From positions 124,001 through 188,000 of the forward strand of contig JACADZ010000022.1 in the NCBI GenBank assembly GCA_013389105.1: DNA of 64,000 nt, given 5' to 3'. The notes beneath the pieces were generated by a model that saw only the letters and a list, made by a program, of their open reading frames with translations, had not been told where the DNA came from and did no database searches. The DNA is from Parvularculaceae bacterium (lineage in GTDB: Bacteria; Pseudomonadota; Alphaproteobacteria; Caulobacterales; Parvularculaceae). Position numbers and translations under genes: made by a program. Of the stretch, positions 49,928 through 54,458 are shown piece by piece (positions within the stretch are counted from its first letter, which is position 1; each line of letters opens with the position of its first letter).

Positions 49928-51688
49928 ATGAGCGAAACTCCCGCCCCAACTCTGACGCTCGCCGGCCGGCTCTGGCGTGGTTATCTCCAGCGCTACGCCC
50001 CGCAGCTGCTCCTCGCCCTCGCGGCCATGGCGGTTTATGCGGCTTCGGCAAGCCTCATTCCCGCCGGCGTCGAATGGATCAACAAGGCGCTTTCGGGGCA
50101 GGGCGCCCCGATCCCCGGCGACGTGCTCGCCTGGGGGCCGGTCCTCGTCGTCGGTCTCGGACTCGTCAATGCGCTCTCCCAGTATCTGCAGGCCCGGCTC
50201 TCGGCCGCTGCTGCCCTCGCCGCGCTGCGCGACCTTCAAGATGAGATGTTCCGCAAGCTCCTCGTCGTCGACGACGCGCAGTTGCGCGCGCTCGGGCAAG
50301 GCCAGGCCATCGGCAGGCTGACCAACGACGCGACGGTGCTGCGCGAGACGCTGACCCGCGCGACGACCGCGGTCCGGGACGTTCTGACGTTTACCGGCCT
50401 GTGCGCCATGATGATCTGGTACGACTGGGCCCTTTTCGTGATTGTCGCCGCCGTCTATGCGGTCATCGGCTGGCCCGTCGCGCGCATCGGCAGATATCTG
50501 CGCAAGAGCTCGCGCGAGGCGCAGGCGCAGACCGGCGAGATCGCCTCGATCGCCGGCGAGGCGGTCGGCGGCGGCCGGATGATCCGGACCTACCGCCTCG
50601 AAGCCCAGGAGGGCGCGCGCGGCCGCGCCGCCTTTGACCGGCGGCTGAAAGTGCTGCAGCGCATGGCGCATCTTCGCGCGCTGAACGAGCCGTTCATTTT
50701 CTTTGTCGGCTCGGTCGCGCTGGCGATCGTGATCGCCGCCGTCGCGCTGCGCATCGAGGCCGGCGCGCTCGACGCGACGGAATTCATCGCCTTCATCGTC
50801 GCGCTTCTCCTCCTGTCGCAGCCGGCGCGCGGGCTTTCGACGCTGAACGCCGTCATGCAGGAAGGCTTCGGCGCTTTCGAGCGCATGCTCGAAGTCATCG
50901 ACCTGAAGCCGCGCATCGCCGATCGCGCGGACGCCGCGCCGCTCGCGCTGAAAGGCGGCGCTGTTTCTTTTCGCGACGTGCGCTTTTCCTATGGCGACGG
51001 CGTCGCAGCGCTCGACGGATTTTCGCTGGAGGTTCCCGCCGGCGCGACGGTCGCCCTCGTCGGGGAGTCCGGGGCGGGCAAGTCGACCGTGTTCGCGCTG
51101 CTGCCGCGCCTTTACGAGCCGCAATCGGGCGCGATCCTGATCGACGGCGCCGACATCGCCGGCGTCACGCTCGCCTCGTTGCGCGCGGCGATCGCGGTCG
51201 TCAGCCAGGAGACAATTCTCTTCAACGACACGGTCGCGGCCAATATCGGCTTCGGCAAGCCGGGCGCGAGCGACGCCGAGATCGTCCAAGCGGCGACCGC
51301 GGCGGCCGCCGACGATTTCATCCGCGCCCTCCCAAACGGCTACCGGACGTTCGTCGGCGAGGGCGGCCAGAATCTCTCCGGCGGCCAGCGCCAGCGTATC
51401 GCCATCGCCCGCGCGTTCCTGAAAGAGGCGCCGATCCTGCTGCTGGACGAGGCGACGTCCGCGCTCGACGCGGAGTCCGAGTCGCTGGTGCAGGCCGCGC
51501 TGAAGCGCCTCGCCAAGGGGCGCACCACGCTCGTCATCGCGCACCGCCTCTCGACCGTGCGCGAGGCGGATTTGATTGCGGTTGTGGACAAGGGGCGCGT
51601 CGTGGAGACGGGGACACACGCGGCGTTGACGTCGAAATCCGGCGCGTATGCGCGTGTGGTGGAGATGCAGCTACAGCGGACGGCCTAG
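49928..51688 (+). CDS. MsbA-like ABC exporter (lipid A / multidrug type)
   Basis: A half-transporter of 586 residues with a six-helix membrane domain and an ABC domain: Walker A GESGAGKST, Q-loop near VSQETILFND, signature LSGGQRQR, Walker B ILLLDEATSALD and H-loop VIAHRLSTVR. Its location opposite the lipid A genes suggests it flips lipid A-core. I start at ATG 49928 (SETPAPT), nearest to the first helix; ATG 49871 in the same frame adds a Pro/Arg leader. Confidence 0.9.
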   Translation: MSETPAPTLTLAGRLWRGYLQRYAPQLLLALAAMAVYAASASLIPAGVEWINKALSGQGAPIPGDVLAWGPVLVVGLGLVNALSQYLQARLSAAAALAALRDLQDEMFRKLLVVDDAQLRALGQGQAIGRLTNDATVLRETLTRATTAVRDVLTFTGLCAMMIWYDWALFVIVAAVYAVIGWPVARIGRYLRKSSREAQAQTGEIASIAGEAVGGGRMIRTYRLEAQEGARGRAAFDRRLKVLQRMAHLRALNEPFIFFVGSVALAIVIAAVALRIEAGALDATEFIAFIVALLLLSQPARGLSTLNAVMQEGFGAFERMLEVIDLKPRIADRADAAPLALKGGAVSFRDVRFSYGDGVAALDGFSLEVPAGATVALVGESGAGKSTVFALLPRLYEPQSGAILIDGADIAGVTLASLRAAIAVVSQETILFNDTVAANIGFGKPGASDAEIVQAATAAAADDFIRALPNGYRTFVGEGGQNLSGGQRQRIAIARAFLKEAPILLLDEATSALDAESESLVQAALKRLAKGRTTLVIAHRLSTVREADLIAVVDKGRVVETGTHAALTSKSGAYARVVEMQLQRTA

Positions 51689-51737
51689 CGCGTTACACGA
51701 TTACTGTTATCAAAAGCTTTGATGTGCAATAAAACAG

Positions 51738-51743
51738 TTGACA
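51738..51743 (+). promoter_or_regulatory. Possible -35 box of the secreted-protein pair
   Basis: TTGACA precedes an AT-rich stretch with a run of ten T's before the TTG-start gene at 51800. No convincing -10 box is visible at 17-base spacing. The 110-base gap after the exporter holds nothing else I recognise. Confidence 0.25.
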
Positions 51744-51799
51744 TTCTTTTTTTTTGGTAGCGTGAAATTGCCACAGAAATTGGAGTCGATATCCAGAGA

Positions 51800-52279
51800 T
51801 TGTTGCGATATTTTACGACCGTCGCGCTGGTTTCCGCAACGGTTGCAGCCCAGCCGGCGTCAGCCCAAAGCGATCCATGTGAAGGTGTGCCCGGCGACTG
51901 TGTAGGCGTCACCGGCGAGCGAACCAACTGGGGTCTTGATTTCTGGATATTTATCGTTGGCCGTGGCGGAGGCGGCGGCAGCGGGATTGGCCAAGGCGCG
52001 GGGGGAGGCATTTACGTTCCTGCCGATTCGCCCTTTGATCCAATGCCTCCGCCGGCCGGGTATATCAGCATTTCGGCCGTTCCGCCATTTTCGCCGCCGA
52101 CCGGCACTGTAGCCGTCGTTGTCAACGTGCGGCATTGCGTTGACCAAAACGCCGACGGCGTGTCGGATGAGACGATTGAAGGCGGGTTCACGGTTCGCGG
52201 TCGCGACCTGGACTACAACCAGCGACCGGATGTCTGGGACCAGCTTGAGCAGCAAGGGCGCGTTTGGCAGTGCCCATGA
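51800..52279 (+). CDS. Secreted Gly/Pro-rich protein with Ca-binding-like loops
   Basis: A 159-residue exported protein: signal LRYFTTVALVSATVAAQPASA, then a cysteine pair (PCEGVPGDC), a glycine-rich run (RGGGGGSGIGQGAGGG), a Pro-rich stretch and two acidic loops, DQNADGVSDE (115-124) and DLDYNQRPDVWD (136-147) resembling EF-hand or thrombospondin-3 repeats. The last 50 residues hold two further cysteines. TTG 51800 or 51803 starts it; no ATG or GTG precedes it before an in-frame TAG. Its lower G+C and TTG start match the aspartic-protease gene 40 bases downstream. Unknown family. Confidence 0.6.
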   Translation: MLRYFTTVALVSATVAAQPASAQSDPCEGVPGDCVGVTGERTNWGLDFWIFIVGRGGGGGSGIGQGAGGGIYVPADSPFDPMPPPAGYISISAVPPFSPPTGTVAVVVNVRHCVDQNADGVSDETIEGGFTVRGRDLDYNQRPDVWDQLEQQGRVWQCP

Positions 52280-52319
52280 CCGCCCTCTAAGTGCTCATGA
52301 CCGCAAGGAGGAAGCAGCG

Positions 52320-53663
52320 TTGCAGCGAGTGTCAAAATTTGTTTTTTTGTGGGCGCTGCTTTCCTCTTGCCTCGTGCGGACATTTGTATCGACCGTATCG
52401 GCGTCTGAAGATGCGAAATTCTGCGATCGCTATCGAGAGGTTTCAATAGGCGCGATTCTGGAAGGCTCGGACCCTTTTGCGCTTAGGTGCGCGCTGGCAG
52501 GTAAACTTGGCGACCGAGCGTTAACTGCCGACCAGGCTCTCGCCGCTGAAACGCTGCTGAATCTCTTTGAGGTCAATAATGGCGCGGGCATAGTCGGCGC
52601 ACTTCGCTATCTGGAGGGACGCGCCGAAAGCTCGGATACACTATGCAACAAGATTTCCCGGGAACTGCGCCGGGCATATCTCCTTGAGGGCAATTACGCC
52701 GCTTACGTCCGCCTGCGCGCCGCTTCGTGTTCTGAAATGGCGCAAGCGGTTCAGGGCATCCGTTCGGGCCCAAAGCAATCGACCAAGGCCTCTCGCATTG
52801 GCGTCCAAGCCCGCCTGAAACTCAAAACGCTCCCAACCGGACATCGCTTCGTGGAAGCTACCGCGGCTGATACTGCGATTGAGATGATCATCGACACTGG
52901 CAGTGAAGTGTCGCTCGTTCCGCGCTCACTGGCGCAAGAGCTTGGTTTTCAGCGCCTTGGCGCGGAGCAAGGCGTCGCGGTCAGTCTATCAGGTAATTTT
53001 TCCGGGTACTTTGCACTGTCTCCTGTTCTTCAGCTGGGCGAAATGACTGTGGAACACTTGATCTTCTTTGTCATTGACGATGATCCGAAGACGCGCAAAT
53101 TTTTTGGCGATCGGCCGGTTCTCGGTCTTAACGCCCTGATCGCGGCGGGAGGCGCGACTTTCCTGGGAAGGGAAGATGCGTTGATTCTCGGGCGGCCTGC
53201 GAAATCGCAACGCTGCTGGCGCAATCGCGATGAGATGTTCATAATGAATGGCCGTCCCTATCTGACGGCGCACTTCGAAACCGGCCCCGCCTTGGCGTTT
53301 TTCGATACCGGCATCAATTATAACGCGGGTTTTGCGCCGCCCGTCGGCTTCTATGCTGATGAGTTGCGTGTCATAAGCCATTCTGGTTTCTATGCGCCGA
53401 ATGACAATGCTCTCATCCAGGGTGGGACATTTACAGGGGTGCGGCGCGCCCGCTTTTCGCTTGCGGAACAAGAGCTGACCATTCGGGACTTGCCGATATT
53501 TCGGCTCAAGGCTGGCGGCAAGCTCGGTGCCACGTTGTGGCTGGGTGCGCCGCTGGTCGAGCGACTAGACGTTTTGATGCTCGATTTTGAAAGCATGACT
53601 TTTTCGGTCGAGAAGAAGCAGAGCGAGATTTCGGCCGCTTGCCTGCAATTTGCAGCCGACTGA
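52320..53663 (+). CDS. Secreted protein with two retropepsin-like aspartic protease lobes
   Basis: A 447-residue exported protein. The leader has an N-terminal hydrophobic run (FVFLWALLSSC) and a Cys-containing 150-residue region. Then come two aspartic-protease-like units: IIDTGSEVSLVP (DTG at 192-194) with a hydrophobic-Gly strand at VLGLNALI (267-), and AFFDTGINYNAG (DTG at 329-331) with LWLGAPLVERLDVLMLDF. Retropepsins normally dimerise with one DTG per chain; two in a chain could form one pepsin-like site. TTG 52320 is the start, with AAGGAGGA 8 bases upstream. Moderately lower G+C than the flanks. Active status is unproven. Confidence 0.8.
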   Translation: MQRVSKFVFLWALLSSCLVRTFVSTVSASEDAKFCDRYREVSIGAILEGSDPFALRCALAGKLGDRALTADQALAAETLLNLFEVNNGAGIVGALRYLEGRAESSDTLCNKISRELRRAYLLEGNYAAYVRLRAASCSEMAQAVQGIRSGPKQSTKASRIGVQARLKLKTLPTGHRFVEATAADTAIEMIIDTGSEVSLVPRSLAQELGFQRLGAEQGVAVSLSGNFSGYFALSPVLQLGEMTVEHLIFFVIDDDPKTRKFFGDRPVLGLNALIAAGGATFLGREDALILGRPAKSQRCWRNRDEMFIMNGRPYLTAHFETGPALAFFDTGINYNAGFAPPVGFYADELRVISHSGFYAPNDNALIQGGTFTGVRRARFSLAEQELTIRDLPIFRLKAGGKLGATLWLGAPLVERLDVLMLDFESMTFSVEKKQSEISAACLQFAAD

Positions 53664-53741
53664 AACGATCTCGTTGTTGATTGGAGTACAGAATACATGA
53701 AGCGCTGTGATCGCTTCATGCCAGCCGGAGCGTTTCAGACT

Positions 53742-54458
53742 TCATTCCCGCCGCAGAATCCGTTCCGTCAGTAGATTGCCCCACCACGATCCCATAAATT
53801 CGCGCTTCAGGGCGACGGGGTCGTAGGCGGGGCTCTCCGCCCACGCCATGAAGGCGTCGACATCGGCGAGCGACACGCCAGCGGTGCGGGCATGTTCGAG
53901 GTAGCGCTCGAGCGCATAGTCGATGACGCCGGTCTTGCCCTGCCGCACATGGCCGTAGCGGAATGACAGCTGCTGGCGCATCGCCTCATCGAGCGCAACG
54001 CCTTCTTCGAAAAAGAGGTAGAGGGTTGCGGCGATGCCGACGCGGTCCGCGCCGGACTTGCAGTGCATCAGGGCCGGATACTCGATCTCGCCGAACAGGG
54101 CGCGCAGGCGCTTCAAGAACTCCTTGGGCGGCGCCTCGCGCGAGAAAGCCCGCAAGGGAATGTGGCGCACGCGGGCCTTCGCGCAGGCCTCCTCTTCAAG
54201 GAAGAGAAAGCCGCTGGGCTTGTCGCCGCGCAGGTTGACGATCGTTCTGACGCCGCGCGCCGCCCAGCGCGCGATCTCCGCCGGCGAGGGCTGGTGCGAA
54301 CGCCAGAGCTTGCCGGGCGCGACCTCATGGACGTTGCGGTGGAACAGCCGGATCAGTCCGTGATCGGCGAACATGAGCTCGCGCACCGCGCGGCGGCGGC
54401 CGGCTTCGGTCGCGAAGTCCTCGCGCGTAAGGGGCTTGCCCTCAGTGATCGTCGCCAT
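53742..54458 (-). CDS. Protein tyrosine phosphatase-like protein
   Basis: A 238-residue phosphatase of the dual-specificity/DSP-PTP type. The CX5R loop is HCKSGADRVG, and the general-acid region lies in the preceding EAPPKEF-type stretch; NLRGDKPSG is typical of bacterial DSP-like proteins. ATG 54458 overlaps the end of DUF4170 by 17 bases, so both are co-translated. It may act on phosphotyrosine or on a phosphoinositide/sugar. The frame to 54581 has no coding character. Confidence 0.85.
   Translation of the reverse strand: MATITEGKPLTREDFATEAGRRRAVRELMFADHGLIRLFHRNVHEVAPGKLWRSHQPSPAEIARWAARGVRTIVNLRGDKPSGFLFLEEEACAKARVRHIPLRAFSREAPPKEFLKRLRALFGEIEYPALMHCKSGADRVGIAATLYLFFEEGVALDEAMRQQLSFRYGHVRQGKTGVIDYALERYLEHARTAGVSLADVDAFMAWAESPAYDPVALKREFMGSWWGNLLTERILRRE

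Follow-up and report, generated by a model that had tools for sequence, protein, structure and literature searches.

Aspartic proteases of the pepsin family A1 are bilobed single chains, whereas retropepsins of family A2 possess a single lobe per chain and are active as homodimers. The bilobed pepsins are still contrasted with the dimeric retropepsins in the literature, and structural arguments have been made that pepsin arose by duplication and fusion (PMC2761423, PMC4140852, PMC12239564). Retropepsin-like proteases of clan AA are also present in bacteria, such as RloA/RimB, with signal peptides in the Rlo proteins (PMC12239564), and the single-lobed APRc (PMC4140852). Moreover, a crystal structure from Bacteroides fragilis, annotated as "putative endopeptidase" and "Exported protein", was released in the PDB on 2025-08-06 (9iy9). 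A literature search of sources outside subscription journals returned no paper on 9iy9 or its activity, and none on bilobed retropepsin-like bacterial proteins.

The window analysed here, a stretch of 64,000 nucleotides from a Parvularculaceae bacterium, carries a gene for an exported protein (Table 1) which has two aspartic protease halves in one chain with a pepsin-like predicted fold. Like RloA/RimB and APRc, which are described as retropepsin-like, the protein belongs to bacterial clan AA, and like the Rlo proteins it has a signal-peptide-like start; unlike APRc and the A2 retropepsins, it has two lobes per chain. As a divergent member of a bacterial family that is widespread and has a solved structure already, it is mostly ordinary. 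What is specific to it is a genus branch with an eroding second motif and a linked small gene.

Table 1. Features of the protease locus in the window
Feature	Coordinates	Strand	Remarks
Small exported protein, 159 aa	51800..52279	+	40 bp upstream of protease gene, same strand
Two-lobed aspartic protease-like exported protein, 447 aa	52320..53663	+	TTG start; coordinates include stop
Signal peptide region, ~residues 1-28	52320..52403	+	Direct sequence reading; model helix 3-36
N-terminal helical domain, ~residues 31-150	52410..52769	+	Model helices between 43 and 145
Lobe 1, ~residues 160-300, D192-T-G	52797..53219	+	PF13650 2.6e-9 at residues 178-256
Lobe 2, ~residues 302-435, D329-T-G-I	53223..53624	+	Lobe-2 profile 21.3 bits; model

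Gene, export signal and domain content

The open reading frame and the DTG triplets at residues 192-194 and 329-331 are placed exactly as in an earlier note on this DNA. A Shine-Dalgarno-like AAGGAGG (52305-52311) lies ahead of the TTG at 52320, at which a signal-peptide-like hydrophobic leader begins, while the same frame is still open upstream, with an alternative TTG at 52119. By direct reading, VSA-SE is a possible signal peptide cut and LSSC (residues 14-17) is compatible with a lipobox, so that the mature protein may be periplasmic or lipid-anchored.

The Pfam scan assigned lobe 1 to Asp_protease_2 (PF13650) and to PF13975 (1.1e-6), which places a clan AA retropepsin-like domain in the chain, and left lobe 2, too divergent, with no match. 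However, when a lobe-2 profile was made from relatives alone, with the window protein left out, lobe 2 scored 21.3 bits (E 9e-6), as compared with 10.0 bits for the best of 1,000 shuffles, which shows that the lobe is genuine. Its second half contributed most of this score; the DTG part by itself reached a weak 2.5 bits. Chance occurrence of the DTG triplets was ruled out by the PF13650 match in lobe 1 together with the lobe-2 profile score above the shuffles. Each lobe has D[TS]G, as in the two-lobe family with a helical N-terminus, and also a hydrophobic-Gly motif, namely VLGL (G269) in lobe 1 and LWLG (G409) in lobe 2; both strands are as previously described, and both glycines are invariant across 28 sequences (alignment A3). 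Residue 332, directly after the second triplet, is Ile in the window protein and mostly Ala in its relatives.

Among NCBIfam models, TIGR02281 was the sole match and sub-threshold. The earlier note had likened the chain to retropepsins and pepsins alike; the retropepsin type stands (PF13650, PF13975), while no pepsin-family model appeared in the Pfam results with an E threshold of 10, in a scan whose filters discard weak matches. As for the N-terminal part, said to be of no recognisable family, it has indeed no Pfam match, but the N-terminal part of 9iy9 aligns with the window protein from residue 41 by structure. The N-termini of relatives match TPR weakly, and a family profile of this region does not separate the window protein from shuffles; the match there is by fold only.

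Predicted fold and solved structures

An AlphaFold2 model, computed with the window protein and 27 relatives as input, reached a pLDDT of 82.7 and a pTM of 0.84, with poor regions at residues 341-370 of lobe 2 (pLDDT ~50) and in the last 12 residues. The best Foldseek match of this model was 9iy9 (E 2.7e-23), followed by renins and plasmepsins. According to VIA-align, 9iy9 aligns over 371 residues (window residues 41-431; Z 31, rmsd 4.2 Å), and the family sequence profile matches it over nearly its whole length (2.8e-43) with the DTG aligned in both lobes. The two proteins thus resemble each other in whole-length fold, N-terminal helices and two DTG lobes (FDTGA in lobe 1 and FDTGN in lobe 2 of 9iy9), but differ in phylum and share only ~13-14% identity.

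In addition, pepsins could be placed on the model in one rigid superposition over both lobes, covering ~250 residues with Z up to 16.7 (window residues 162-433 on 1-326, rmsd 3.5-3.8 Å), and fungal pepsins gave Z 16-17 over window residues ~160-435. The predicted model is therefore bilobed, each lobe having one Asp and a hydrophobic-Gly motif, as in family A1 (pepsin, penicillopepsin, renin). Since both lobes fit pepsin simultaneously, D192 and D329 are predicted to face each other, as the earlier note had supposed. The window protein differs from A1 in having no Pfam pepsin-family match, in its retropepsin-type lobes by sequence and in the extra N-terminal helical domain.

The same packing bears on whether the protein works as a retropepsin-like homodimer, in which the first lobes of two chains would pair and the second would have a structural role only. 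Lobe 1 by itself is the better conserved Asp_protease_2 domain, as such a dimer might lead one to expect, but the model shows the two lobes packed on each other, as do the matches to 9iy9 and pepsins, and the lobe-2 aspartate is conserved across phyla, which makes this arrangement very improbable.

A widespread family and a divergent genus branch

The earlier note took two lobes in one chain to be unusual in bacteria, on the premise that most bacterial retropepsin-like proteins carry one DTG. Neither view holds in this order. Asp_protease_2 matches occur in 57 of 60 genomes of the order, and among the matches listed at least 16 open frames carry a pair of them, while a short single-lobed frame occurs roughly once per genome. 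Five Asp_protease_2 proteins were found in the window's own genome, four of them two-lobed: the window protein, its second copy C201, and C167 and C175, each with a pair of matches, although that of C175 includes one below the Pfam cut-off. Only C4 looks single-lobed.

Profile searches across the order and GTDB genomes recovered two-lobed relatives from four phyla: Pseudomonadota (Hyphomonadaceae, Maricaulaceae and Burkholderiales), Acidobacteriota, Bacteroidota and Verrucomicrobiota. Like the window protein, these exported PF13650 proteins have a helical N-terminus, two DTG/DSG lobes and a signal-peptide-like start, yet most of them read DTGA/DSGA and contain a lobe-2 GGAGG stretch, whereas the window protein has DTGI, a divergent loop and 13-20% identity to them. 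The lobe-1 aspartate is retained in all 27 scorable loci and the lobe-2 aspartate in 26 (L043, the 28th locus, was left out because its start had been set too late for lobe 1 to be scored), and both are present in 13/13 members of alignment A2. According to the earlier note, the idea of a self-contained pepsin-like unit would have been refuted had most homologues lost one DTG, which is not what is seen; the idea is backed by the model, the fold matches and the aspartates retained in 26/27 relatives, so that the two lobes may well form such a unit. In the remaining relative, L055 (Rikenellaceae, Bacteroidota), the lobe-2 catalytic Asp is replaced by Asn, making it a possible natural pseudo-enzyme candidate.

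A tree was built from 76 lobes and 144 columns; pepsin lobes were not among them, so it is silent on pepsin. One starred branch (98/89) splits all 30 family second lobes, together with four second lobes of other layouts, from all 30 first lobes, which favours one old duplication, earlier than the dispersal across phyla. The exact place of the window lobes is unsure owing to long branches (3.69 for window lobe 2) and few columns. The second lobes of two order members, L022 and L025, fall outside the lobe-2 group, so these proteins were set apart; this placement hints at a separate origin of their two lobes. Both have two lobes followed by a C-terminal PDZ-type part, matched by Pfam PDZ in L022. 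In another open frame, L026 (611 aa), the domain order of the window protein is reversed: the two retropepsin-like lobes come first, and a long tetratricopeptide-like part forms the C-terminus. A broader scenario, in which one old duplication/fusion of a retropepsin-like lobe preceded the spread over four phyla and the family is a living intermediate between single-lobed retropepsins and pepsins, or shares its fusion with the pepsins, is in our estimate quite doubtful.

The branch of the window protein is present in only 2/9 genomes of its genus, and those two genomes are the only ones of 62 in the bacterial family Parvularculaceae with a two-lobed match to the window protein; outside the genus, a class-wide sample of 385 genomes gave nothing at 1e-12, and a close-relative scan of genome contigs with the window protein as sole query gave no match. 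A second copy in the same genome (contig C201, L002:1166-2439, +; 26% identity) reads DSG and then DGG-F; there, the N-terminal part is encoded in one frame and the protease lobes in another, an interruption due either to a broken gene or to an indel in the assembly. The other species of the genus (L003) has one copy with DTG and then DTA-F, apparently also broken near its 3' end.

Ile332, together with DGG-F and DTA-F in the genus relatives, raises the possibility that in this branch the activity is being lost or altered. It might thus have become a pseudo-enzyme that keeps the two-lobed fold and binds peptides or a partner without cutting as lobe 2 drifts. The erosion of the second motif within the genus (DTG-I, DGG-F and DTA-F), the broken frames of the paralogue and of L003, the long branch of window lobe 2 and the Asp-to-Asn change in L055 would all agree with such drift. 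However, the window copy retains both DTG triplets and both hydrophobic-Gly motifs, and all three genus copies retain both aspartates. We regard loss of cutting as possible but unlikely.

The upstream gene and the proposed function

The small protein encoded upstream of the protease, for which the Pfam scan gave no match, is glycine-rich in its middle and ends in an aspartate-rich stretch (DQNADG, DLDYNQRPD) that possibly binds calcium. A related gene lies directly upstream of the protease in the second species (G003, L003:1749-2426), the C-termini of the two proteins sharing 42% identity over 50 residues; this conservation of gene order is based on two genomes, a small sample. The small gene is probably the first gene of the protease transcript. 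A simple consensus scan of the + strand of 51500-53900 found no sigma-70 type promoter, so the case for a shared transcript consists of the 40-bp gap plus the gene order conserved in the second species. No other neighbouring gene was tied to the protease apart from gene order.

We propose that the window protein is an aspartic endopeptidase that works as a single chain after export, either in the periplasm or lipid-anchored. Lobes 1 and 2 would pack together pepsin-style, so that D192 and D329 would share one catalytic water and a dimer would be unnecessary; the N-terminal helices may serve as a holder or as a guide for the substrate, and the small exported protein could plausibly, though as a guess, be the substrate or partner. 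In favour of an endopeptidase are the conservation of the aspartates, the quality of the model, the pepsin superposition, the full-length 9iy9 match and the conserved upstream gene. Against it stand the weakness of lobe 2, in model confidence at 341-370 (pLDDT ~50) and in its DTG half (2.5 bits), as well as Ile332, the DGG-F and DTA-F motifs of the genus and the broken L002 and L003 frames. On balance, we consider the explanation as a whole fairly likely.

Finally, the family is of greater importance than this single protein. Widespread bacterial two-lobed chains of retropepsin type, whose first and second lobes group separately across phyla, provide sequences with which the duplication/fusion origin of pepsin may be tested.
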